From the IMG/VR virus record IMGVR_UViG_3300045741_000403, positions 1 through 23,995 of that record: DNA of 23,995 bases, one strand, 5' to 3'. Made by a program: the position numbers and the translations under genes. The notes under the pieces were generated by a model. It was given only the letters and a program-made list of their open reading frames with translations, was not told the origin of the DNA and did no database searches. Shown here piece after piece: positions 45 through 22,449 of this stretch. Origin of the DNA: a virus. Within the stretch, counting starts at the first letter, position 1; each line of letters starts with the position of its first letter.

Positions 45-2030
45 GTGATCGTGACGTGGACCGGGACCGAGCTGATCGCCAAGTCGTCCTTCGCCGAGAA
101 GGACCTGTGCAAGGCGTGTGGCCTGTGGTGGCAGCCGACGGCCCGCCGCTGGGGTCTGGCCGGGGACCGGCTGGTTCGCCTGCAGGCCGCGCAACTGACC
201 CGGCTGGCCGGGTACGCCGGGGACCCTGCGACCCAGCAGCACCTGCTCGGGCTGGCCGGCCACAAGGTCGAGACCATCCAGGCCAGCCGGGCGGTCGACG
301 CGAACGTCGAGATCCCGGTGCCCGCGGGCCTGCAGTACCTGCCGTTCCAGAAGGCCGGGATCGCGTTTGCCGCGGCCAGACCGGCCACGCTGCTGGCCGA
401 CGAGCCGGGCCTCGGCAAGACCATCCAGGTGATCGGCGTGGTCAACAGCGACCCGTCGATCAAGACCGTGTTGGTCGTGTGCCCGGTCACCCTGCAGATC
501 AACTGGGCCCGTGAGGCGTGCAAGTGGTCGTGCCGGGGCGCCCACGTGACCCTGCACCGGGCCGACGGGACGTCCGACGTGCACGAGGGCAGCTCGACGT
601 CCGAACAGGCCGTGCGGTTCCACGTGGTGGGATACCAGGCGCTCGTCAAGCGGGCCGACCTGCAGGCCGGCCGGTACGACCTGGTCGTGTCGGACGAGGC
701 TCACCTCGTCAAGAACCCGAAGGCCCAGCGCACGCTGGCCGTCAAGGCCGTCCTGCCGGGCGCCCGCCGCCGGATGCTGCTGACCGGGACCCCGATCGTC
801 AACCGGCCGGCCGAGTTGTTCACGCTGGTCAACGCGCTCGACCACACCGTGCTGGGCGCGTTCATGACGTACGCCAAGCGATTCTGCCAGGCCCACTACA
901 ACGGGTACGGCTGGGACTTCTCGGGCGCGGCCAACCTCGACGAACTGCAGGAGAAGCTGCGCGGCACCCTGATGATCCGCCGGCTCAAGTCCGACGTGCT
1001 CCGGGAGTTGCCGGCCAAGACCCGCGAGATCGTCGTGCTGCCGGCCAACGGGACCGCCCGGCTGGTGGCCCGCGAGGACCGGACCGCCCTGGACGAGGCC
1101 CGCGAGGCCGTCGAGCAGGCCGCCGCGCTCGAGGACCAGTCCGCGTACGACCTGGCCGTCGACCGCCTCCACAAGGCCGCCAACCTGGCGTTCGACCAGA
1201 TGTCGGCCACCCGGCACGACACGGCCCTCGCCAAGGTCGGGGCCGCGGTCGACCACATCAAGACCTGCCTGGAGGACAACGACAGCAAATTGGTGGTCTT
1301 TGCCCACCATCAGGACGTCGTCCAGAAGCTCGCGGCCGAGCTGGCCGAGTTCCAACCGGTCGTCGTGACCGGGCAGACCGCCGTGGAGGACCGCCAGGCC
1401 GCCGTCGACCGGTTCCAGGCCGACCCGACCTGCCGGGTGTTCATCGGCAACATCCTGGCGGCCGGCGTGGGCCTGACCCTGACGGCCAGCTCGCACGTCG
1501 CGTTCGTCGAGCTTGATTGGGTGCCGGGCAACGTCAGCCAAGCCGAGGACCGCTGCCACCGGATCGGCCAGCGGGACAACGTGCTGGTCCAGCACCTCGT
1601 GGTGGACGGCAGCATGGACGTCATGTTCGCCGAGATGCTGATCGAGAAGCAGCGCGTGATCGACCAGGCCCTCGACATCCAGCACAGCGAGACGGCCGCC
1701 GTCCAGGCCATGGACCATGCCGAGGCCAAGATGGCCCGCGCGGCAGCTTCCCGGATCGTCCGCCAGGATGTCGCGGTGGTCCCGGCCGCCCGGAAGGCCG
1801 CCATCCTCGAGGGCGTCCGGGTCGTGGCCGGCCAGTGCGACGGGGTCGTGAGCCGGGATGGCATGGGCTTCAACAAGGCCGACGCGGCGTTCGGCCACCG
1901 GGTGGCCCTCATGGCCGACCTGACCGACCGCCAGGCCCACGCGGCGGCCCGCATGCTGTCCAAGTACCGCCGCACGCAACTGCCGGCCCACCTGGTGGCC
2001 ACGATCTGGCCTGAGCAGGGGATTGGATGA
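45..2030 (+). CDS. SNF2-family (SMARCAL1-like) DNA-dependent ATPase/helicase
   Basis: This is a superfamily 2 ATPase of the SNF2 class, expected to translocate on duplex DNA and remodel or reanneal forks or displace bound protein. With the GTG at 45 as start it has 661 residues. An N-terminal part with CKAC and a WWQPTARRWGL patch is followed by the ATPase core: motif I DEPGLGKT (about residues 119-126), motif II DEAH (about 217-220), LLTGTP (motif III), and motif VI DRCHRIGQR near residue 503. GTG 45 is preferred over GTG 21 because GAGGTG at 35-40 makes a good ribosome binding site; GTG 51 is also possible. Compact SNF2 proteins of this kind are known in large phages. The stop overlaps the ATG of the next small gene. 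The family is secure; the role in the phage cycle is inferred. Confidence 0.92.
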   Translation: MIVTWTGTELIAKSSFAEKDLCKACGLWWQPTARRWGLAGDRLVRLQAAQLTRLAGYAGDPATQQHLLGLAGHKVETIQASRAVDANVEIPVPAGLQYLPFQKAGIAFAAARPATLLADEPGLGKTIQVIGVVNSDPSIKTVLVVCPVTLQINWAREACKWSCRGAHVTLHRADGTSDVHEGSSTSEQAVRFHVVGYQALVKRADLQAGRYDLVVSDEAHLVKNPKAQRTLAVKAVLPGARRRMLLTGTPIVNRPAELFTLVNALDHTVLGAFMTYAKRFCQAHYNGYGWDFSGAANLDELQEKLRGTLMIRRLKSDVLRELPAKTREIVVLPANGTARLVAREDRTALDEAREAVEQAAALEDQSAYDLAVDRLHKAANLAFDQMSATRHDTALAKVGAAVDHIKTCLEDNDSKLVVFAHHQDVVQKLAAELAEFQPVVVTGQTAVEDRQAAVDRFQADPTCRVFIGNILAAGVGLTLTASSHVAFVELDWVPGNVSQAEDRCHRIGQRDNVLVQHLVVDGSMDVMFAEMLIEKQRVIDQALDIQHSETAAVQAMDHAEAKMARAAASRIVRQDVAVVPAARKAAILEGVRVVAGQCDGVVSRDGMGFNKADAAFGHRVALMADLTDRQAHAAARMLSKYRRTQLPAHLVATIWPEQGIG

Positions 2031-2200
2031 AATCAGTCAAGTACAGGATCGTGACCGCGGTCTACGACCAGATCTGGAACCGTATTGGGAGTAAGACCCA
2101 GATCGGGAGCCAAGTCTGGTGGCGGATCGAGATCCAGATCGGGAGGCAGATCTGTGTCCAGGTCAAGAGCCAGATCCGAGATCAAGAGGACCAATCATGA
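2027..2200 (+). CDS. Small tetrapeptide-repeat protein, copy 1 (57 aa)
   Basis: This 57-residue protein is read from an ATG overlapping the SNF2 stop (ATGA, 2027-2030). It starts MKSVKYRIV, and valine or isoleucine then recurs about every fourth residue after Q, R or K (DQIWNRIG, TQIGSQVW, RQICVQV, KSQI). It ends QEDQS, and its TGA overlaps the ATG of the next copy. I recognise no known function. The opening MK-[SP]-V and the four-residue rhythm are shared with 2197, 2482, 21534 and, more weakly, 21739, so a real family is likely. The rhythm could make a helix with a slowly drifting hydrophobic stripe, suited to self-association; that is inference. Confidence 0.7.
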   Translation: MKSVKYRIVTAVYDQIWNRIGSKTQIGSQVWWRIEIQIGRQICVQVKSQIRDQEDQS

Positions 2201-2424
2201 AACCAGTCAAGTTTGAGATCGGTAGCCTGGTCAGGATCCACGTCAGGAGCCACGTCAGGAGCCAGGTCAGACCCGTCTGGGGTAGCCGTGTCTGGTTCAG
2301 GATCCTGAACCCGATTGAGCGCCAGATCCTGGAAATCAGAAACCAGATTTTGAACCAGGCATGCCGATGTATGGATCCAAATCGAGAAGCAGGTCGGGAG
2401 CCGGGCCTGGAGCCGGGTCTATGA
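2197..2424 (+). CDS. Small tetrapeptide-repeat protein, copy 2, apparently frameshifted (75 aa as read)
   Basis: Starts at an ATG overlapping the previous stop, with GAGG at 2186-2189 as ribosome binding site. The start MKPVKFEIG and repeats such as RIHVRSHVRSQV match the neighbouring copies. After NQILNQ (ending at 2358) the rhythm breaks and the reading frame gives an unrelated tail ending in two EPGL units. In another frame, from 2360, the four-residue rhythm resumes and runs to a QEDQS end at 2482, the same ending as copy 1. A two-base loss at 2359 (a GTC codon reduced to G) would restore perfect periodicity and give about 96 residues. It is either a recent frameshift mutation or, less likely, programmed frameshifting. 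Confidence 0.55.
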   Translation: MKPVKFEIGSLVRIHVRSHVRSQVRPVWGSRVWFRILNPIERQILEIRNQILNQACRCMDPNREAGREPGLEPGL

Positions 2425-2485
2425 CCATGTCATGAAACATGTCTATGGTCAGGTCATGAGCCATGTCCAGGAGGACCAATCGTGA
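2360..2485 (+). pseudogene. Out-of-frame 3' remainder of tetrapeptide-repeat copy 2
   Basis: In the frame starting at 2360 the codons read HADVWIQIEKQV, then units ending RA, RV, HV, HV, QV, HV and finally QEDQS before TGA at 2483-2485. This continues copy 2 exactly in style. It has no good start of its own except the ATG at 2432, which would give only 17 residues. The stop overlaps the GTG of copy 3 (GTGA), so ribosomes reaching this frame would be passed to copy 3. Confidence 0.5.
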
Positions 2486-2667
2486 AGTCAGTCCACTTCG
2501 AGATCGTGCTCAGGGTCGTGTGGCAGAACGAAAGGCAGGTCATGAGCCGGCTAGGCGGCCCGGTCTGGTGGCAGATCGAGAGGCCGGTCAGGCTTCAGGT
2601 CTATAGCCAGGTCATGAGACAGGTCTATGGTCAGGTCAAGAGCCAGATCGCGGAAGCTGGCGTCTAG
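2482..2667 (+). CDS. Small tetrapeptide-repeat protein, copy 3 (61 aa)
   Basis: GTG start at 2482 with AGGAGG just upstream (about 2469-2474); the leader AGGACCAATC is the same as before copy 2. The protein begins MKSVHFEIV and contains YSQVMRQVYGQVKSQI, again with valine or isoleucine every fourth residue. It ends EAGV at TAG 2665-2667. That stop lies on the same CTAG as the stop of the ribonucleotide reductase on the other strand. Function unknown; membership of the small repeat family is clear from the start and rhythm. Confidence 0.68.
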   Translation: MKSVHFEIVLRVVWQNERQVMSRLGGPVWWQIERPVRLQVYSQVMRQVYGQVKSQIAEAGV

Positions 2668-4547
2668 ATTCCGCAAATTCCACCTTGGCACGCCAACTCT
2701 CCGATCCTGGCGTCCTGGTGGCCCAGGAAATCGATCGCCTGGAAGTCGAGTTCGACACCCTGGAATCGGTTGGACCACCGGTGGAAGTCGATCTCGCTGA
2801 CCTGCTCGTACGGGGCCTGCCGGTACGTCCCGCCGTCGTGCGGCAGGAACGCGATCCCGTTGACCGTGGTGCGGTGCTGGACCAGCCAGTCGACGATGGC
2901 GTCGCGCTCGTGGTCCCGGTAGTAGCACGTCAGGCTGACGTTGTGGGTGTTGGGCCCGGACCGGTGGGTCGGCTTGATCCAGTTCTGCTTGATGTGCAGG
3001 GCCCGCTCGAGCAATTGGATGGCCGGCTCGTCCGACGACCTGATCGACCCGGGCCGGGCCGCGTGGGGCGCCGTCACGACGATGAGGCCCGCCTTGCTGA
3101 AGTGGTCCTCCACGATGTTGCCCGAGCACGCCGGCCAGCACCCCAGCCGGTCGACCAGGTAGCTGGCCAGCGGGCTGTCCCGGTCGATCTGCATGCGCCT
3201 CAGGTAGAACGCCCCGTAGTCCCCGTGGATGCCGGGTGTCGTGGCCAGGTACGTCGACGTGGACCCCGACGGCTTGGTCGTCCCGATGCGGGCCGCCTGA
3301 TTGATACCCACCATGGCGGCCCACCCGGCATTCGTGTCGAGCGCGAGCTGGCCGGCCCGCCGGAGCACGTCGGGCTGGCCGATCAGGTCCCAGCGCTCGG
3401 CCTGGCCCGTCAGGCTGACGCCCAGCAGAGCCTCGGCCTCGGCGTGCTTCCGCCACTTGGCCTGCAGGTAGTGGAAATCCGTGTAGGCCGCCTGCAGGGT
3501 CCCGATGGCCGTCGCCGACATCACGGCCTCGTCGAACTCGTCCTGGTCACGGCACGCCGCGACGTTGACTTCCGAAAGGTTGCAAAGTCCTTGACTTTGC
3601 AGAGAAATCTCACCGCAGGGATTGGTCCCGACATCCAGGTCGTTCGTCAGGTACAGGCCGGGCTCCCCGGCCTGGCTCGCGTAGCACGCGGCCATGACGG
3701 CCCGGATCTTGTCGACGACCTCGGGGTCGCTCCTGAGGATCACGGCCGAGTTGTTGGCCCGGGCCCGCTGGCCGTGCTGCACCCACCAGTCCCCGTTCTT
3801 GCACGCCAGCATGTCCTGGTCGTCCGCGTCGAACAGGCAGATCAGTGCGGCCCTCCGGACCCCGCCGACCACCACGGCATCCGACTGGTGGCACATGATG
3901 TCGTGGACCTCGATCGGCTTGAGCCGGCGGCCCACGGCGCCCTGCAGGATGGCCCGCATGGCCTGGTGGGCGTCCCGCAGGGGCTTGGGGCCCGAGGCCG
4001 TCCCGCCCGTGCTGAGCGGGCTGCCGGCCGCCCGGATCGCGCTGTAGTCGAACCGGACCTTCGGGTTGGCCAGCAGCATCTTGACCGAGTCGGCCCACCC
4101 TTCCTTGTCGTCCGGGATCACGAACGACTGGTCGGGGTCCCCGGGCTGGATGACCGGCAACTGGCCCACGTGCCGCCACTGGACCGAGTAGCCCACGCCG
4201 CACCCATTCATCGACAGCCAGAACGCGTCGGCCACGTCGGCGAACGACGTGATGGCCGTGTACGCGCAGTTGTACCCGCGCGCGTGGGACCGCTCGATGG
4301 CCCGACCGGCGAACTGCATGGTCCTCATGGACGGGACCGCCCGCTTGGCCAGCACGGGCCCGAAGGCCCGCCGGATGTCCCGCTCGAGCCGGGGGAACCG
4401 TTTGACGTGCTGGGCGATCACGCGCTCGACATTCTCGGCGTGGGTCTCTTTGCGGCCAGACGGCAGCGTCTCGGCGTAGGTCCGGAGCGCGACCAGCTCG
4501 GCCATCAACCGACGTCCGAACTCGTGTTTGGGGGTGTCGTGCAGCAC
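2664..4547 (-). CDS. nrdJ: Class II (adenosylcobalamin-dependent) ribonucleotide reductase
   Basis: Reduces ribonucleotides to deoxyribonucleotides with a cobalamin-derived radical, supplying precursors for phage DNA synthesis without oxygen or a second subunit. With the GTG at 4547 (AGGAGA just upstream) it has 627 residues, shorter than the monomeric lactobacillal type (about 740). Visible hallmarks are an N-terminal active-site cysteine in GYNCAYT (about residue 94), the catalytic NPCGEI loop (Cys about 311, Glu about 313), a further cysteine in GLCNL (about 322), the TTKPSGSTS phosphate loop, and a C-terminal CxxxxC pair (CQGGIC) used for re-reduction. It follows the tail-hub gene after about 90 bases. 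An earlier in-frame TTG at 4586 lacks a ribosome binding site. The NPCGEI region is locally AT-rich and holds a hairpin. Confidence 0.93.
   Translation of the reverse strand: MLHDTPKHEFGRRLMAELVALRTYAETLPSGRKETHAENVERVIAQHVKRFPRLERDIRRAFGPVLAKRAVPSMRTMQFAGRAIERSHARGYNCAYTAITSFADVADAFWLSMNGCGVGYSVQWRHVGQLPVIQPGDPDQSFVIPDDKEGWADSVKMLLANPKVRFDYSAIRAAGSPLSTGGTASGPKPLRDAHQAMRAILQGAVGRRLKPIEVHDIMCHQSDAVVVGGVRRAALICLFDADDQDMLACKNGDWWVQHGQRARANNSAVILRSDPEVVDKIRAVMAACYASQAGEPGLYLTNDLDVGTNPCGEISLQSQGLCNLSEVNVAACRDQDEFDEAVMSATAIGTLQAAYTDFHYLQAKWRKHAEAEALLGVSLTGQAERWDLIGQPDVLRRAGQLALDTNAGWAAMVGINQAARIGTTKPSGSTSTYLATTPGIHGDYGAFYLRRMQIDRDSPLASYLVDRLGCWPACSGNIVEDHFSKAGLIVVTAPHAARPGSIRSSDEPAIQLLERALHIKQNWIKPTHRSGPNTHNVSLTCYYRDHERDAIVDWLVQHRTTVNGIAFLPHDGGTYRQAPYEQVSEIDFHRWSNRFQGVELDFQAIDFLGHQDARIGELACQGGICGI
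3582..3600. repeat. Perfect 8-bp inverted repeat inside the reductase active-site region
   Basis: GCAAAGTC, a three-base loop, then GACTTTGC, directly followed by a smaller inverted repeat (GAGA-AA-TCTC, 3602-3611). It lies in the codons just after NPCGEI in a patch clearly richer in A and T than the rest of the gene. It may be chance, a folded mRNA element, or a trace of past insertion or gene conversion. Confidence 0.6.
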
Positions 4548-4637
4548 GTTGTTCTCTCCTGGCTCGTCGTCAAAAGTCGTGTACAAGTCGTGGAAAAGCG
4601 CACGGGTGCCCCCTGCGGGACAAACCCGGCCCTACCG

Positions 4638-7600
4638 TCAACCCGATGGGGTCGATTGCGTCTGCGTCGATTGCTTGTTGGCCGCGTCGGCCCGCGCATT
4701 GAACGCGGTCCACGCACGCCCGGTGTCCCCGTTGGCCTTCTCGACGTGGATGTGAGGCCCAGATTCCTGGGTCTCGACGATGAAGTTGTATCCGTTGGTC
4801 GTCGCCACGTCGGCCATCCGGTTCAGTTGATCGGGCGTGAACACACTTTTACCTGTCAATGGATCCCGGGATCTCAAGTCGATGGCCTGCCCGAGGTAGT
4901 GCTTGCTGTTGCTGACCTGGCGGCCGGCCACGTGGGCGTCGCGCTTGTCGGCCCACGACTGGGTCACGATCAACGTGACCTCCGGGACCGCCAGCGCCAT
5001 CTGGTACAGGACGTCGCGGGTCGTGTCGTCGGCCCGCAGCGGGACCCCGTCCTTGGTCGCCACGTTGGACGGGGCCTTCTGGATGTCCTGCACCGGCACG
5101 CTCGTGGCCGGTGACTCCACGCCCGACCCGGTCAGATCGATCCCGGACCTCGCCTTGATCTTCTTGACGTCGATCGTCGGGCTCGGTGTCTTGGTCTCGG
5201 TCTGGGCCGATTGGGCCGGCTGGGTCGGCACCTGCTCGGTTGGCAGCGACGCCTGGGCCGCCTGCTCCTCGGCCACCGACGCCTCCGGGACCGACTGGTT
5301 CGCGGTCGACGTTCCGGTCGTGCTGGTCGAGGTGGATGTCGTGGATGACGTTGACGACGTTGATGACGCCCCGGTCGATGTCGTGGTCGTGCCTGACGAC
5401 GTCGGGGCCGTGGTCGTCTTGGTCGCGGCCTGGCCGGCCGACTTGGCCGCCGGCTTGTCGGGCTTGGCCTTCTGGGCGTCGGGCACCAGGTACGACAGGC
5501 CCGCGTGCTGGCCGCCCGTCAGCGTGAACCGGTACGACCTCATGATCCGGTCGGGCTGGCCCGCCAGGGTTGACGGGACCTTCTCGTCCACGACCTTACG
5601 GATGGCCCGGATCGTCACGGTACTCGACACCTGCCCGAGCAGTTCCCAGGTGGTCTCGACCGATTCACTCAGCCCCAGGCGCCCCCGGCGTGCCAGCAGG
5701 ACCGGCCTGTTGACCCCCCAGAATGGCCGGTGGGCCGCCACGAACGATGCCCGGGACGCGTCCATCAGCTTCTTCTGGTACGTCAGGAGCGCGTACGCCG
5801 CGACCTTCTCGGGCGTGTCGAGCCACGGGATCCTCGTGTCCAGGTCGACGTTCCCGATGCCGTACCGCGTGGCCACCACCTTGCTGTAGGCCGCCACCCT
5901 CATGACCATGTTGTTGAACTGCTCGCTCTGGGCATCGGCCGGAATCTGGGTGCCGCCGTACGATCCCGTGACCACGACGGCCGCCGGGACCGTCTCGGCC
6001 TCGGGCGTGACGGTCGAACTGATCGCGTGGCCCCGGACCGTGAACAACCGCTCCCACTCGGACCCGAAGTGCTCGGGTGCAAAATCGTACATCGGGAACT
6101 CGAGCACGAGGTCGCCGCACGGTGTCGTGTAGAACTGGTAGTCCAGGGCCTCGGTGTACTGCCTGATGAACGACAACCGGTCCGTGAACTGGAACTGCTC
6201 GGGGTTCGCGTCAAACGCGAACTGCTCGAGCGAGTCGACGTTCGTGCCGCCCCGCGGCAGCAGCATGTGCAGCTTGCCGCGCCACGGGTCCTCGTTGCCT
6301 CCAATGAAACACGCCTGGCCGGCTGTCGTGACCTCGGGGCCCGTCAAGAACCCGCCGTGCAAATCCCGGGGCTTGGCCTGTGGCAAAGCCGACTCTCCGA
6401 ACATCGTGATGTTGTGCCAGTCGGCCAGCCTGGCGGCCGACGCGTCGCCCTGCGCGCTGTTGACGTTGCCGTTCACGGCACTGGCCCCGCCGGCCGCCGG
6501 GTACCTCACGACCCTGCCGATCGTGAACCAGCCGACCGCCGGGACCGGCGTGTTGGCGTTCTGGCCTTTGTCCTTGCTGCCCTTCGGGGTTGCCGGGACC
6601 TTCCCGTTGATCTCGCTCAGCGTGCGGCCCACCACGAACTTCGACACGAAGTCCTCGAGGTTCAGGCCGATGGCCGCCGAGCTGGTCCCATCGGTGTTGG
6701 CCCCGGTCAGGTCATTGAAGAATCCAGGCTGCTTCTCGTACAGGAAGATCGGGTCGAGCTGCGCGATCGCCATGTTCTTGGCGACGCGTTGCTGGGCCAT
6801 CATGTTGCGGATGCAGTAGCACGAGACCGTGATCGACGACGCGCCGGTCGTCTCGTCACACGATTCCGTCACGGTATTGATGAACCCCTTGTACGCCCGG
6901 TACCACTCGTCGTTCTCGGTCAGGGGATTGTGCGCGAAGATCACGACCGGGTCGTGCTTGTTGATCACGATGTCGCCCTGGTCGAACGTCCACAAGGTCT
7001 CGTTCGTGTCCGGGTCCCGGGGGTTGTACTTGTTGGCCTCCCGTTTGGCCGGCGCGAACGATTCGGTCGTCACGTCCTGCCCGGCCAGTGGACTGTTCCG
7101 CGACTTGATTCCACGTTGCACGATGTCGTCGGCCTCGTGCAGCGCGAGCGACGGGAACTCGGCCACCACCTTGGCCAGCACGGACCGGCCCGTTTCACTG
7201 GCCGTGTCGTCGTCCTTGAAGAACTGCGGCCCGAGCGCCTGCATCGTGCTGTTCACCACGGACTGCACGGCCTTCTGCTTGGTCGAGTCGTCCTGCCCGG
7301 CAGCCTCCGGGTCGAGCGTGTCGAACTGCAGGCTGGCTTGCGCGCGGGCATCGACGAACAACTGCTCGACCACGCGCTCGCGGTCCGCCAGGGTCGGCTG
7401 GCTCGACAGCCCGAGCTTGCGATTCACGATCGCTTTCTTGGCGGTCTCGTCGTACCGAGCGTACGGGTCAGCCCCAAACGTGCCGGCCACGTTGGCCGCC
7501 GTCATGACGTACTTGTCACCCGCGTTGTCCAGCGTGAACTGCGCGGTCGAGAATGCCGTGCGGTTCTGCATGCTGGTCGACACGGTGTCGCGTAGGTCCT

Positions 7601-7694
7601 GCGTGACCTCGACGCCCGCGATGAAGATCCTGATTTCGTGGTATAGAGTCTGCCGCTCAAGTTCCCGGAATCGAATGTTTGGCGGCTTCTTCAT
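4638..7694 (-). CDS. Large tail/baseplate-hub-like protein with C-terminal M15-type peptidase
   Basis: A 1018-residue protein. The N-terminal three quarters resembles contractile-tail hub proteins in style (opening strands RIFIAGVEVTQDL then FTLDNAGDKY), but I cannot name the family with certainty. Around residues 740-800 is a serine/threonine-rich linker. The last 130 residues carry a D-alanyl-D-alanine carboxypeptidase (M15/VanY-like) zinc signature: SKHYLGQAIDLR supplies His (about 932) and Asp (about 939), and GPHIHVEK supplies the distal His (about 983). Known phage hubs often carry a wall-cutting domain used when the tail penetrates the cell wall. The ATG at 7694 overlaps the previous gene by 38 bases and its ribosome binding site is weak. 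No signal peptide is seen, as expected for a virion protein. Confidence 0.75.
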   Translation of the reverse strand: MKKPPNIRFRELERQTLYHEIRIFIAGVEVTQDLRDTVSTSMQNRTAFSTAQFTLDNAGDKYVMTAANVAGTFGADPYARYDETAKKAIVNRKLGLSSQPTLADRERVVEQLFVDARAQASLQFDTLDPEAAGQDDSTKQKAVQSVVNSTMQALGPQFFKDDDTASETGRSVLAKVVAEFPSLALHEADDIVQRGIKSRNSPLAGQDVTTESFAPAKREANKYNPRDPDTNETLWTFDQGDIVINKHDPVVIFAHNPLTENDEWYRAYKGFINTVTESCDETTGASSITVSCYCIRNMMAQQRVAKNMAIAQLDPIFLYEKQPGFFNDLTGANTDGTSSAAIGLNLEDFVSKFVVGRTLSEINGKVPATPKGSKDKGQNANTPVPAVGWFTIGRVVRYPAAGGASAVNGNVNSAQGDASAARLADWHNITMFGESALPQAKPRDLHGGFLTGPEVTTAGQACFIGGNEDPWRGKLHMLLPRGGTNVDSLEQFAFDANPEQFQFTDRLSFIRQYTEALDYQFYTTPCGDLVLEFPMYDFAPEHFGSEWERLFTVRGHAISSTVTPEAETVPAAVVVTGSYGGTQIPADAQSEQFNNMVMRVAAYSKVVATRYGIGNVDLDTRIPWLDTPEKVAAYALLTYQKKLMDASRASFVAAHRPFWGVNRPVLLARRGRLGLSESVETTWELLGQVSSTVTIRAIRKVVDEKVPSTLAGQPDRIMRSYRFTLTGGQHAGLSYLVPDAQKAKPDKPAAKSAGQAATKTTTAPTSSGTTTTSTGASSTSSTSSTTSTSTSTTGTSTANQSVPEASVAEEQAAQASLPTEQVPTQPAQSAQTETKTPSPTIDVKKIKARSGIDLTGSGVESPATSVPVQDIQKAPSNVATKDGVPLRADDTTRDVLYQMALAVPEVTLIVTQSWADKRDAHVAGRQVSNSKHYLGQAIDLRSRDPLTGKSVFTPDQLNRMADVATTNGYNFIVETQESGPHIHVEKANGDTGRAWTAFNARADAANKQSTQTQSTPSG

Positions 7695-8283
7695 GGTTTT
7701 CCGCTCGGGCAATCACCGCGTTCACCCGGTCGAGCACCGACACCTGTCCCGCTGGACGCTCGCGCGCGAAAGCCGTCACGACGTCGACTATCCCGTCGAC
7801 GTCGTTCGGGACCATCATGACGTCGAGCCTCGCCAACACAGAAGGTGCATGTGCAAACCGGTCGGTCAGCCCCACGATCTTGGCGCCGCCTGTTCGGGCA
7901 AATAACAAGTCGACCCCGATCTCGGGGGCTGGATCCGACAGGTCGACGACGACGACGTCGGACCTCACGAGCCCGTAGAGATCGCGGGCGTGGTGGGCGA
8001 TCAGCGGGACGCCGCCGTCCAGATCGTACAGCCAGGCCAGCACGTTCTTGTCGGTCGGTGGCCCGAACGTCCGGTCATCGAGCCCGAGTTCTCGGGCCAA
8101 TCGTACGAACGCCAGGCGTGGGGCCCGGTCCAGATGTGCCCGGACGCCCGGATCGTCCAGCAGGGCCTTGAGGCTGGCGTTCGGCCGCCAAGTCGCGTGC
8201 CGGAGCGTCGCGAGCTTCTCGGCCACCGGCTGGATCCAAGCCGGTTCCTGGGCCGTCATGGAGTGCGCGCAGTACACCAGCAT
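7657..8283 (-). CDS. Nucleoside 2-deoxyribosyltransferase-like protein
   Basis: A 208-residue protein that begins MLVYCAHSMT, matching the opening strand and loop of the deoxyribosyltransferase-like fold. Further on are VRSDVVVVDLSDP and EIGVDLLFARTGGAKIVGLTD; in this fold the acidic residue after 'D-VVVVDLS-P' sits where the catalytic glutamate of the GxxxE segment lies. Members cleave or exchange nucleoside glycosidic bonds, so a role in nucleotide salvage or base modification fits the reductase nearby. The ATG at 8283 is chosen for GGAG seven bases upstream. The residues between about 20 and 80 are unfamiliar. Enzymatic activity is inferred, not certain. Confidence 0.55.
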   Translation of the reverse strand: MLVYCAHSMTAQEPAWIQPVAEKLATLRHATWRPNASLKALLDDPGVRAHLDRAPRLAFVRLARELGLDDRTFGPPTDKNVLAWLYDLDGGVPLIAHHARDLYGLVRSDVVVVDLSDPAPEIGVDLLFARTGGAKIVGLTDRFAHAPSVLARLDVMMVPNDVDGIVDVVTAFARERPAGQVSVLDRVNAVIARAENHEEAAKHSIPGT

Positions 8284-10494: not shown

Positions 10495-11566
10495 CGGTGC
10501 CTCCCTCGTCAATGTCGGGTTGGTCTTGGATGGGGGCCATCACGAACGACGTCGTGCCGGCCTGCAGCGTGATCCTGTCGCCCGGCGGTACGATCGTGAC
10601 GGCCTGGCCCTTGAGCCGGCGGCACACGATCGACAGGACGGCCGCGTTGCACTGGAACGAGCAGGCGTCCGCGTCACCCGCGAGATCGACGGCGTACCGG
10701 TTCTTGCCCGCCTGGATGATGACCCGGCCCTTGTCGGGCCTGACGTCCAGCGTGACCGTGGTGGCTGGCGTGATGGCCCCGCTGGCCGACTTGAGCGCCC
10801 CGAGGGCCCCGGCCAGTTCGTCGGCCTGGACCACGAACCCGCCGGCCACGGGTGCCCCCAGGACCTGGTCCAGGTCCTCGATCGCGACGGTCCGGACCGG
10901 GTGCCAGCACGTGACCCGGTCGGTCTGGAACGTCAGGGCTGATGAATCCTGACCGATCCCGAACGTCCCGGCCGTGCCCATGGCCCGGACGACCCCGGCC
11001 GGCACGACCAGGTCGGCAGGCCGGCGGTCATCCCGGTCGACCAGACAGTACCCGGCGTTGAACGGGTTGTGCGTCCAGACCCTGGCCCCGGACTGGTCGG
11101 TCCGGATCCGGACGAACGGCTGGCGGTCCTGCAGGCCGGCCATCTCGACCGTGTCGATCGCGTGCTTCAGGACGGGCCCCGAGAACAGGGCGTCCGGGGC
11201 CGGGCCCTGGCGCCGGGCGGGTGCCGGCGGGTCGACCAGCGGGAATGTCGCGCGCAGCCGGCCGGCCCTCACGTCAAGGCCCCCGGGGCCACTGGACAGC
11301 CGGCAGGTCGCAGCCTGCACGGCCAACCGGCCGAGCTGACCGAACGGCACGGCCGCCTGGCCGGCCTGCCCGTCCCCGGCCACCTGGCCGACGACCTCGA
11401 GCCCCCGGTACTGGGCCTCGACCTCCAGGCGGTCCGGGTAGGCGATCAGCCGGCAGACCGCCTGGTCGGCCCGGACGGCCTCGCTGCCCAGGTCACTGGC
11501 CTGGAACACGGCTTGGACGTCCGTGACGAGCTGCTTGAACGCCGGGAACGGCACGTCGATCTGCAT
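10487..11566 (-). CDS. DNA polymerase sliding clamp (beta-clamp-like)
   Basis: A 359-residue protein close to the length of bacterial DnaN (about 366). It shows the clamp style of repeated strand-helix units: an opening IDVPFPAFKQLVTDVQAVFQ, a central VLKHAIDTVEMAG, and an end VPPGDRITLQAGTTSFVMAPIQ that resembles the last strands of beta clamps. It would encircle DNA and tether polymerase, ligase or FEN nuclease, all expected partners here. ATG 11566 follows the exonuclease stop after nine bases with AGG as a weak ribosome binding site. Internal identity to DnaN is low by eye, so the call rests on overall pattern and context. Confidence 0.72.
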   Translation of the reverse strand: MQIDVPFPAFKQLVTDVQAVFQASDLGSEAVRADQAVCRLIAYPDRLEVEAQYRGLEVVGQVAGDGQAGQAAVPFGQLGRLAVQAATCRLSSGPGGLDVRAGRLRATFPLVDPPAPARRQGPAPDALFSGPVLKHAIDTVEMAGLQDRQPFVRIRTDQSGARVWTHNPFNAGYCLVDRDDRRPADLVVPAGVVRAMGTAGTFGIGQDSSALTFQTDRVTCWHPVRTVAIEDLDQVLGAPVAGGFVVQADELAGALGALKSASGAITPATTVTLDVRPDKGRVIIQAGKNRYAVDLAGDADACSFQCNAAVLSIVCRRLKGQAVTIVPPGDRITLQAGTTSFVMAPIQDQPDIDEGGTGV

Positions 11567-20350: not shown

Positions 20351-21537
20351 GGCAATCCTCCGATCCACACCTTCTTCTTGGCCCGTGTCACGGCCGTGTA
20401 CATCCACCGGATCCTCATGTCGACCGGCATCATCCTGACGATCGACGTTTCCCACTGGACCACGACGTGGTCGTACTCGCAGCCCTGGGACGCGTGGCAC
20501 GTCAAGGCATACCCGAAGTTCACGTCGACGTACGGGAGCCTCAGGCCTTTGACCTGGGACGCGTCCGCGGAAGTCCCGTCGAGCAACACGTTGACGTCGA
20601 TCAGCGTCAGGACGTCGTTCGGCTTGATCGCCCGGTACTGAGGCGGGTGCCGGTACGGCAATTCGTGGTACCCGCCGAACGGGATGACCTGGCCGTTGTA
20701 CAGGCCGGCTTTCTTGTTGGACCGACGGACGAGCAGCGGCTCGCCGACCTGGGGTTCCTGGTTGTCATCCCAGCCAAACGACGCCCGGACCTTCCGGTTG
20801 ATGTGCCGGCGCAGGTCATTCGTGTACGTGATGGCCACGTGGTCGATCTGGTCGGACACCATGCCGGCCACCCGCTCGACCACGCGCCCGACGGCCGGCA
20901 ATCCCTCGATCACCCGGCAGGCCGCGGCCCAGTCGTCAGGGTGCTCCCGCAGTTCCGTGGCGGCCCTCAGGACCGGGCTCTCGAGGGCCTGGCGCCACAC
21001 ACGCACGAGATCGACCCGTTGGACCGGGATGTCGGCCTGTTTGCAGGCCGCCAAGAACTCGGGCCCGAACACGCTGAACGGCTTGTCGGCCGGCGTGACC
21101 GGCGGCAACTGGAACGCGTCCCCGACGATCAGCAGGCTGGCGTCGGCCGTCTGGACGGCCCACCACAGGTCCTCCCAGACGGCCGGCCCGACCATGCTGG
21201 ACTCGTCGCACACGACCAACCCGTTGGCCGGCCGCTCGATCTCGCTCGCCAGCTTTCGCCGGAATTCCACGGACCCGTCGGGCCGAGGCTGCGGCTTGTA
21301 CACGTGTGTGTGGATCGTCTTGGCCGGCCGGCCCGACACCTCGGCGGACCGCAAGGCCGCCCGATTGGTCGGCGCGACCACCACGGGCGTCCCGACCTCG
21401 TCCATGATGGTCTTGAGGGTGGTCGTCTTGCCAGAGCCGGCGGGACCACTCAGGATGCCGATCCGCCCAGGCTGCTGCACGAGCCATCGGGCCATGTCGA
21501 CGGCCTGGTGCTGCTCGGCGTTGAGCTGGATGGTCAC
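20347..21537 (-). CDS. RecD/Dda-like superfamily 1 DNA helicase
   Basis: A 396-residue 5'-3' SF1B helicase, similar in size to T4 Dda, which helps start replication and clears proteins from DNA. Seen: the Q-motif-like LNAEQHQAVD, Walker A GPAGSGKTTT (31-40), motif Ia APTNRAAL, motif II VVCDESSMVG (Asp about 111), the motif III region GDAFQLPPV, and the UvrD-C2 ending YALTCHASQGCEYDHVVV with a final YTAVTRAKKKVWIGG. GTG 21537 overlaps the upstream stop (GTGA). An earlier in-frame ATG would add an EPCREPC string that is the repeat gene read out of frame, so it is rejected. Confidence 0.93.
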   Translation of the reverse strand: MTIQLNAEQHQAVDMARWLVQQPGRIGILSGPAGSGKTTTLKTIMDEVGTPVVVAPTNRAALRSAEVSGRPAKTIHTHVYKPQPRPDGSVEFRRKLASEIERPANGLVVCDESSMVGPAVWEDLWWAVQTADASLLIVGDAFQLPPVTPADKPFSVFGPEFLAACKQADIPVQRVDLVRVWRQALESPVLRAATELREHPDDWAAACRVIEGLPAVGRVVERVAGMVSDQIDHVAITYTNDLRRHINRKVRASFGWDDNQEPQVGEPLLVRRSNKKAGLYNGQVIPFGGYHELPYRHPPQYRAIKPNDVLTLIDVNVLLDGTSADASQVKGLRLPYVDVNFGYALTCHASQGCEYDHVVVQWETSIVRMMPVDMRIRWMYTAVTRAKKKVWIGGLP

Positions 21538-21722
21538 GGTAAGACCTGGTTCTCGACATGGCTCTCGGCATGGCTCAAGACATGGCTCCAAAGCTGGCTC
21601 TCGACCTGGCTCTTGACCTGGTCCCAGACCTGGCTCTCGACCTGGCTCCTGACCTGGCTCGAGACCTGGCTCCAGACCCGGCTCACGACATGATACACGA
21701 TCTTGGATTTGACTGGTTTCAT
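21534..21722 (-). CDS. Small tetrapeptide-repeat protein (62 aa)
   Basis: ATG 21722 with AAGGG upstream. It opens MKPVKSKIVYHVV and then reads an almost perfect four-residue repeat (WSQVSSQVRSQVESQVWDQV), ending in units with L, HV, HA, HV and QV, and a final LP. The start and rhythm match the three plus-strand genes at 2027-2667, about 19 kb away on the opposite strand. It overlaps the SF1 helicase start. No known function. Every fourth residue is hydrophobic, with a polar Q or H just before it. Confidence 0.75.
   Translation of the reverse strand: MKPVKSKIVYHVVSRVWSQVSSQVRSQVESQVWDQVKSQVESQLWSHVLSHAESHVENQVLP
21541..21690 (-). repeat. 12-base tandem repeat encoding the (x-S-Q-V) units
   Basis: On the minus strand the unit is GAGCCAGGTCnn with about twelve copies, the last few drifting to GAGCCATGTC. 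The units are in phase with the small repeat gene. No spacers separate them, so it is not a CRISPR array. Confidence 0.8.
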
Positions 21723-21738
21723 GATTAATCGACCCTTT

Positions 21739-21915
21739 TTAGTCTCGGACCTGGGATTTGATCTCACCAAAGACCTGCATGAACACGCGATGCCAAACGC
21801 GAGCCACGACACGATCGACGATCGCTGTCGATGGTTCAATCTCGCGTATCCACGCATGCACGAGTGGGATGTCAGGCAAGACATTGTAGCTGATTCGCCA
21901 GGCCACACTCTTCAT
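21739..21915 (-). CDS. Small MK-x-V relative of the repeat family (58 aa)
   Basis: ATG 21915 overlaps the upstream stop (ATGA). It opens MKSVAWRISYNVLPDIPLVH and ends with RVVARVWHRVFMQV and GEIKSQVRD. The opening matches MKSVKYRIV of the 2027 gene, and valine again recurs at four-residue steps towards the end, so it looks like a diverged member beside the repeat-rich copy. The composition is lower in GC than neighbouring core genes. It ends at TAA 16 bases before the next start. Function unknown. Confidence 0.6.
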   Translation of the reverse strand: MKSVAWRISYNVLPDIPLVHAWIREIEPSTAIVDRVVARVWHRVFMQVFGEIKSQVRD

Positions 21916-22277
21916 CCCAGCCTCGAGATCACGGCCCCCCGGCGCCCCCGGTCCATGAACTCGGCGGTTGCCTGGATCGTGGCGTACAGGTTGGCCCGCG
22001 AGCACTGGTAGGCCGACCACTTGGAATTCGTGGCCTTGGGTTTCACCAACAGGTTGTCGGGGCACACGGTACCCGGAACCACGTAGTACGTACCGGTCGG
22101 TCGGTCGTCGGCCGTGACGACCGCGACCATGATCTTGTCGTCGGCCCGGGCGTCGGCCATCCTGAAGATGCACCGGCCCAATTGGTCGATGATCGAGTGC
22201 CTGACGATCACTCGGTCGTGCAGGGCCTCAGGCAGACCCTGCATGATGCGTTTGACGATTCCCTGGTCAGTCGGCAT
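21912..22277 (-). CDS. Uncharacterised protein (121 aa)
   Basis: ATG 22277 with AGGAG seven bases upstream. It opens MPTDQGIVKRIMQGLPEAL and has strands DRVIVRHS, CIFRMADA, KIMVAVVTADD and GTYYVVPG, followed by a helical end (ANLYATIQATAEFMDRGRRG). There is no recognised motif. Codon use is the GC-rich core type. It could be a small alpha-beta protein of the replication cluster. Confidence 0.66.
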   Translation of the reverse strand: MPTDQGIVKRIMQGLPEALHDRVIVRHSIIDQLGRCIFRMADARADDKIMVAVVTADDRPTGTYYVVPGTVCPDNLLVKPKATNSKWSAYQCSRANLYATIQATAEFMDRGRRGAVISRLG

Positions 22278-22449
22278 GTTGCTCCTCGGTTCTGGCTGCG
22301 TGTCGGACCGCCTCTTCAATGGCGTGACAAGCAACGAAAAAGCTAGGTGGTTGGAAGAAACGCCGCCCGAGCGCGGACGGACAAATCGGCGACTGGTCCA
22401 GGAGGTCCTGGAGCGGCGCCACGCACACCAGATATTGAACAGTCTTCAC
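22267..22449 (-). CDS. Small MK-x-V orphan protein (60 aa)
   Basis: GTG 22449 overlaps the upstream stop (GTGA) with GGAG five bases before it. It opens MKTVQYLVCVAPLQDLLDQS, similar in start to the MK-x-V repeat family, and ends in a helix (FFVACHAIEEAVRHAARTEE). Four-residue rhythm is weak. It overlaps the next gene by 11 bases and carries that gene's ribosome binding site. The composition is AT-richer in the middle. Its upstream junction matches those at 15965 and 16177. Function unknown. Confidence 0.5.
   Translation of the reverse strand: MKTVQYLVCVAPLQDLLDQSPICPSALGRRFFQPPSFFVACHAIEEAVRHAARTEEQHAD

Follow-up and report, generated by a model that had tools for sequence, protein, structure and literature searches.

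Introduction

Among described phage proteins, those of the DUF6745 family (PF20530; PHROG 31813; e.g., gp174 of the Microcystis phage Ma-LMM01) come closest to the genes treated here, as in many of its phage members an SQVx repeat of about 10 to 70 units separates the N-terminal from the C-terminal part (in one repeat-bearing protein PF20530 was matched with E = 2e-41). The DUF6745 proteins of Ma-LMM01 itself and of cyanobacterial plasmids contain no repeat. In this study, the IMG/VR virus record IMGVR_UViG_3300045741_000403 was analyzed over its 23,995 bases (the window), which possibly represent a fragment and encode helicases, a ribonucleotide reductase and a DnaB-like helicase. Five short genes of the window, here called QV genes, code for the same repeat alone, and none of the window open reading frames (ORFs) matched PF20530, neither in Pfam nor with profiles of the N- and C-terminal DUF6745 parts. 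The five genes belong to a family of phage proteins with 50–130 amino acids that are built of x-Q-V-x tetrapeptides.

Other repeat types share single traits with these proteins. Coiled coils (heptad, hendecad) are similar insofar as AlphaFold2 proposes a helix with regularly spaced hydrophobic residues for a QV protein. However, the in-phase spacing of QV proteins is exactly 4 and not 3.5 or 3.67, and neither a heptad nor a hendecad pattern was found. On a straight helix, a stripe of period 4 would turn about 40 degrees per unit. Short-unit solenoids of the pentapeptide-repeat type resemble QV proteins in their short units with conserved small/polar, polar and aliphatic positions and one free position, but the QV unit has four residues and there was no Pfam pentapeptide match. 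PHROG 5189 and PHROG 33514 (66 and 56 amino acids) showed weak matches to some free QV proteins over approximately 16–30 residues (E down to 2e-5 and 6e-6), which are, however, limited to the repeat stretch; the window proteins matched neither of the two. In the literature outside subscription journals, neither DUF6745 nor SQVWSQV was mentioned in any paper, and a search for four-residue repeats yielded nothing relevant.

Results

QV genes in the window

Three of the short genes lie on the plus strand between an SNF2-like helicase gene and the ribonucleotide reductase gene, and two more lie on the minus strand ahead of a Dda-like helicase gene. The scores refer to a family profile made from 54 free QV proteins of other phages, none of them from the window, and to 500 composition-preserving shuffles per ORF:

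2027..2200, plus strand: QV gene 1, ATG start, 57 amino acids, MKSVKYRIV...EDQS; 49.6 bits, best shuffle 18.4
2197..2424, plus strand: first part of QV gene 2, ATG start, MKPVKFEIG...; 35.0 bits, best shuffle 11.4
2354..2485, plus strand: continuation of QV gene 2 in the +1 frame, HADVWIQIEKQVGSRAWSRVYDHVMKHVYGQVMSHVQEDQS; 32.8 bits, best shuffle 16.2
2482..2667, plus strand: QV gene 3, GTG start, 61 amino acids, VKSVHFEIV...; 47.9 bits, best shuffle 18.0
21534..21722, minus strand: QV gene 4, the regular copy, ATG start, 62 amino acids, MKPVKSKIVYHVVSRVWSQVSSQV...ENQVLP; 76.9 bits, best shuffle 20.4
21739..21915, minus strand: QV gene 5, diverged, ATG start, 58 amino acids, MKSVAWRIS...KSQVRD; 19.8 bits, best shuffle 10.1

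The window genes are members of the QV family: every QV ORF outscored all 500 of its own shuffles. The first-pass annotation of this DNA had claimed tandem short genes opening with MK[SP]V at 2027–2667, as well as relatives on the minus strand, one regular (21534) and one diverged (21739). All five genes were indeed found, both minus-strand copies match the family profile, and the MK[SP]V opening is common to all of them, with M1, K2, V4, I8 and V12 being invariant. An MK-x-V start together with in-phase hydrophobic residues at positions 4, 8 and 12 is present in all five window copies and in 42 of 58 copies from other phages. Some starts match closely between phages, such as MKSVKYQ (L082) and MKSVKYR (window) or MKLVKSQI (L051) and MKPVKSKI (window), and the window genes exhibit the same tandem overlaps of starts and stops as other arrays. 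The window QV proteins belong to no named Pfam or NCBIfam family, all Pfam matches being below the curated cut-off (e.g., DUF4816 with E = 1e-4 reached 22.2 bits with a cut-off of 29.4). The earlier view of a protein-coding tandem family with conserved frame and start, but without a family name, is thus supported.

The strict four-residue period that had been claimed for these proteins holds for the copy at 21534; in the other window copies the period is degenerate, yet above chance. In 20,000 shuffles, pairs of hydrophobic residues at i and i+4 gave p values of 0.0001 (gene 1), 0.049 (gene 2), 0.0016 (gene 3), <5e-5 (gene 4) and 0.004 (gene 5), while a single-phase test gave 0.21, 0.0006, <5e-5, <5e-5 and 0.0017, respectively.

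Exact four-base overlaps (ATGA or GTGA) were found at five of the six junctions of the window, with the junction of genes 2 and 3 being counted in the shifted frame. The SNF2-like helicase gene (21–2030) ends in the ATGA in which gene 1 starts, genes 1 and 2 likewise overlap by four bases, gene 5 shares ATGA with the gene upstream of it (21912–22334, minus strand) and gene 4 shares GTGA with the start of the Dda-like helicase gene at 21537. The sixth junction, between genes 5 and 4, is a gap of 16 bases. Gene 3 lies tail-to-tail with the ribonucleotide reductase gene (2664–4586, minus strand). The overlaps that had been described stand at these four-base junctions, but gene 2 is not one intact frame: it is broken near 2350–2360, the remainder to 2424 lacks the repeat, and the period-4 pattern runs on in the +1 frame, whose stop at 2483–2485 lies in the GTGA overlap with gene 3. 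The break in this gene (2197–2485) may be a mutation, an assembly error or a frameshift.

Apart from these genes, the minus strand of the window (4638–7712) encodes a protein of 1024 amino acids with a T/S-rich linker and no Pfam or PHROG match. Its C-terminal stretch HYLGQAIDLRSR may resemble a peptidase-type domain.

Free QV arrays in other phages

A scan with the regular window copy led to 40 viral loci, of which nearly all encode DUF6745 proteins with SQVx repeats. The exception is a 368-kb contig (L047; IMGVR_UViG_3300025162_000016, 368,758 bases) with several dozen tandem free QV ORFs. A profile of the five window proteins, as proposed in the first-pass annotation, was too diverged to serve as scan query. 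In scans with free QV copies, free QV genes were detected in 20 IMG/VR contigs besides the window; three pairs of these contigs are near-identical, leaving about 17 distinct phages. Each phage has many different QV paralogues. Their 179 ORFs (duplicates included) are mostly joined by ATGA (30 junctions), ATGAATAA (29) or ATGAATGA (13), starts and stops are chained in one frame across dozens of genes, and 51 of the 58 MK-start copies open with MK[x]V/L/I/F. Overlaps of 14–17 bases occur in several phages (L120, L128, L138); at 3748–4168, 5645–7617 and 5400–6521 of these loci, respectively, the MKSV start and the -NEIS, -NEIR or -HEISS end of the previous gene are the same DNA read in two frames.

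The genomes of 84,980 species contained just four loci, all of them DUF6745 genes with internal repeats; one of these loci, a contig of 23,426 bases, is apparently identical to a viral record, and the family therefore looks mainly viral. Close relatives of the window phage were sought in IMG/VR by its SNF2 and Dda helicases and none was confirmed. An exact scan for the gene junction gave two matches, both antisense inside an unrelated nuclease gene and hence due to chance. A tblastn search of the repeat against isolated phages gave no match, which is probably explained by low-complexity masking hiding the repeat.

Two further observations concern single contigs. Approximately 3 kb upstream of its large QV array, L047 contains arrays (1312–4792) resembling clustered regularly interspaced short palindromic repeats (CRISPR), with 20 copies of the 36-base repeat GGTGAAGTGCTGGAACAGACCAGTTACTATATCACC, mostly spaced 71–86 bases start to start. 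At 7545–8468 of L085 and 5515–6438 of L116 (IMGVR_UViG_3300032163_000030), about 24 QV units are fused to a phage protein other than DUF6745, which places the repeat in at least a third protein context.

Exchange with DUF6745 and neighborhood of QGD

Free QV arrays and DUF6745-internal repeats replace each other. DUF6745 proteins with internal repeats (at least six QV units) comprised 57 non-redundant ORFs, and none of these 57 loci contained free QV genes when the flanks were read. Conversely, all 11 DUF6745 ORFs without internal repeats (10 contigs) lie beside free arrays. Neither this exchange nor the presence of the repeat in DUF6745 had been noticed in the first-pass annotation. DUF6745 is encoded in 12 of the 20 array contigs and in nine of the ten with at least 25 kb; in a comparison set, a less sensitive search (E ≤ 1e-3) found it in 11 of 50,697 phage records. 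In most array loci DUF6745 is complete (285–340 amino acids). In L047, its N-terminal half (7486–7797) and its C-terminal half (10499–11500) lie apart with QV ORFs around them.

A third gene encodes a globular protein of approximately 110 amino acids, here called QGD, in which Q-G-D and, besides it, an E, three H, a further E and a D are invariant. This protein is a member of PHROG 27831 (Ma-LMM01 gp175) and has neither a Pfam match nor a relative in the PDB. For 50 of 64 DUF6745 genes, QGD was found at a distance of up to 600 bases, as it was for 39 of the 46 with both flanks covered. Like the QV proteins it is a neighbor of DUF6745, with QV genes being interleaved in L120, L124 and L133 and adjoining QGD in L128; unlike them it contains no repeat. 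The gene order is QGD, QV, DUF6745, QV, QV in L133 and QV, QV, DUF6745, QV, QGD, QV in L120. DUF6745 and QGD are also adjacent in two isolated phages: Ma-LMM01 (L168; NC_008562, gp174-gp175), without repeats, and the Mycobacterium abscessus prophage prophiGD102-1 (L167; MW584211, genes 37–38), with a D/G-QL-x repeat.

Codon use and repeat turnover

Among 1,993 units, Q is present in 85% and V, I, L or M in 97%; two thirds of the units begin with S, D or N, and 63% have W, R, E or G as x. The entropy of the V codon is 0.18 bit at its second and 1.48 bit at its third position. S-Q-V is spelled TCG CAG GTC, TCT CAG GTG, AGC CAA GTT, AGC CAA GTG, AGT CAA GTG, TCA CAG GTC and in further ways, depending on the phage, the x codon being mostly TGG, [AC]GG, GGG or GAG. 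DUF6745 repeats likewise have nearly one fixed codon set per phage, and these sets differ between phages up to TCN versus AGY serine. As each phage has its own synonymous codons for S-Q-V, selection acts on the protein. Near-identical contigs differed by zero synonymous and two non-synonymous changes, too few for a ratio of the two (dN/dS), and codon diversity between phages was therefore used instead. The comparison of synonymous and non-synonymous change that had been proposed thus favors protein function, with synonymous sites being free between phages and residues fixed. Relaxed variants of the repeat exist as SSLx in a Manatee Spring siphovirus and as D/G-QL-x in the Mycobacterium prophage.

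Within a phage, the DNA unit is nearly identical from copy to copy. In most array contigs, V is GTC in 90–100% of units, although most of their other genes use this codon for 7–27% of V. The unit is homogenized within a phage, often against the local codon preference, and we read the uniformity of GTC as recent within-phage homogenization. Turnover is rapid: contigs with 99.6–100% identity outside the repeat differ by whole 12-base units. L030 and L031 differ by 36 bases at 99.6% overall identity, and L012 has 72 fewer repeat residues than L019 despite 100% identity over 6,182 bases.

Predicted structure

The AlphaFold2 monomer of gene 4 is a single helix (residues 2–60) with a predicted local distance difference test score (pLDDT) of 92. 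The prediction rests on a shallow low-complexity alignment and is weak evidence for a rod shape. The unusual filament or scaffold suggested in the first-pass annotation stays hypothetical, a one-helix monomer model of a low-complexity repeat being of little weight. No relative was found among solved structures or with Foldseek in the PDB; among viral models, Foldseek matched only DUF6745 itself, the best match being that of Ma-LMM01 (E = 9e-15).

Discussion

The coding nature of the QV family, its tandem overlapping arrays, its relation to DUF6745 and its rapid unit turnover are observations. For the biological role behind them, we give an about even chance to a three-part phage module of QV rods, DUF6745 and QGD, with the rods as its variable multivalent part. 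QV proteins would be elongated repeat rods, in which the conserved S/D/N-Q-V positions may form the rod itself and make it associate with other such rods or with DUF6745, while the variable x positions, with their preference for W, R, G and E, would offer a changeable multivalent binding surface. Where the repeat is not built into DUF6745, it would be supplied in trans by the array, and the overlapping starts would allow one mRNA to make many different rods in similar amounts. Gain and loss of units together with array duplication may keep altering length and surface, which fits an assembly whose partner is variable and probably belongs to the host; the rapid unit turnover makes a putative host-facing role likely. 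With DUF6745 and QGD, the rods would act as an assembly inside the infected cell, and the coupling of both QV sites of the window to helicase genes would fit expression with non-structural genes.

Several observations weigh against this proposal. Loci were found by the repeat, and repeat-less DUF6745 genes without arrays are under-sampled by this selection effect, which does not, however, produce the zero of 57 free arrays beside repeat-bearing DUF6745. One array contig of 103 kb has no DUF6745. The broken frame of gene 2 implies that not every QV copy is essential. In the AlphaFold2 model of a DUF6745 protein (L037) the pLDDT is 80 overall and below 50 in the repeat, and, with a mean Pace-Scholtz value of 0.45–0.52 (versus 0.38 for GCN4), the QV unit forms helices poorly. 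As neither DUF6745 nor QGD was found in the 24-kb fragment, membership of the window phage in the module is hypothetical; its copies of both, if present, would lie beyond the fragment.

Because the residue composition is unfavorable for a helix, helix and solenoid both remain candidates. That the same module has another fold, with the four-residue period reflecting a beta-solenoid or a cross-beta fiber, is a serious contender, whose probability we place somewhat below even. The richness of the units in V, W, S, N, D and G, their poverty in strong helix formers, the shallow alignment behind the predicted helix and the low confidence of the repeat inside DUF6745 would all fit, while the sole confident prediction is helical and no relative has been solved.

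Fast unit turnover, the many paralogues per phage and the replication and metabolism genes around them, in the window as well as in L109 and L120, could also point to an arms-race repertoire of decoy or counter-defense proteins, whose changing x residues bind or block host defense or housekeeping proteins independently of DUF6745. We regard this as unlikely, since the idea alone does not explain the cis/trans exchange with DUF6745, and a search with PADLOC for anti-phage defense yielded no match better than E = 0.004, and that in low-complexity stretches.

That the 12-base DNA repeat may itself matter had been suggested in the first-pass annotation. The homogenized unit lends this suggestion partial support. 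DNA or RNA made of such units (e.g., AGTCAAGTCNGG) would then serve recombination, the structure of the mRNA or the traffic of ribosomes, and protein coding would be a constraint on it or a by-product. The preference for GTC and the third base of x, which is almost always G even in AT-rich phages, would be in line with such a role. Yet GTT is the main V codon in the two large phages, and in DUF6745 repeats V is GTC, GTG or GTT according to phage. As the choice of the V codon differs between phages, no single DNA word is conserved, and the uniformity within a phage is explained by homogenization. We consider such a role quite improbable.

The split DUF6745 halves of L047 with QV ORFs around them and the broken gene 2 bring to mind debris, i.e., free QV genes as pieces left over from DUF6745 genes after the break-up of their internal repeat. 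This is very doubtful, given that DUF6745 is complete in most other array loci and that free QV genes, unlike fragments, share a start of their own and conserved overlaps. A non-coding 12-base minisatellite expanding by slippage, with ORFs being open since a stop-less 12-base unit opens several frames, would account for the near-identical DNA units within a phage, for copy numbers shifting by 12 bases and for other frames being open and periodic as well, but it is largely refuted and extremely improbable, as S-Q-V persists between phages through changes in each of its three codons, the V codon varies far more at its third than at its second base, dozens of genes have their starts and stops linked in a single frame, and the array profile recognizes the window proteins above all shuffles.

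We give a small chance to the further idea that the order of the x residues (mostly W, R, G and E, one in every four residues of a backbone otherwise fixed as S-Q-V) is information. The rods would be modular readers, each unit touching one element of a partner that is itself repetitive, either a polymer or a host assembly, and phages may re-target them by shuffling 12-base units and whole genes. If true, this would be a minimal four-residue recognition code.

The QV proteins are a real, apparently undescribed and fast-changing family, which probably works together with DUF6745. They add a repeat type with an exact four-residue period, which is under protein-level selection in many phages and which each phage re-expands on the basis of a DNA unit of its own. 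It is striking that a single genome can contain an array of several dozen overlapping paralogues; such arrays are hidden from ordinary BLAST and annotation by low-complexity filters. The same repeat moves between cis, inside DUF6745, and trans, in tandem genes, and it ties together three groups of phage genes annotated without function: the free QV arrays, DUF6745 and QGD/PHROG 27831.

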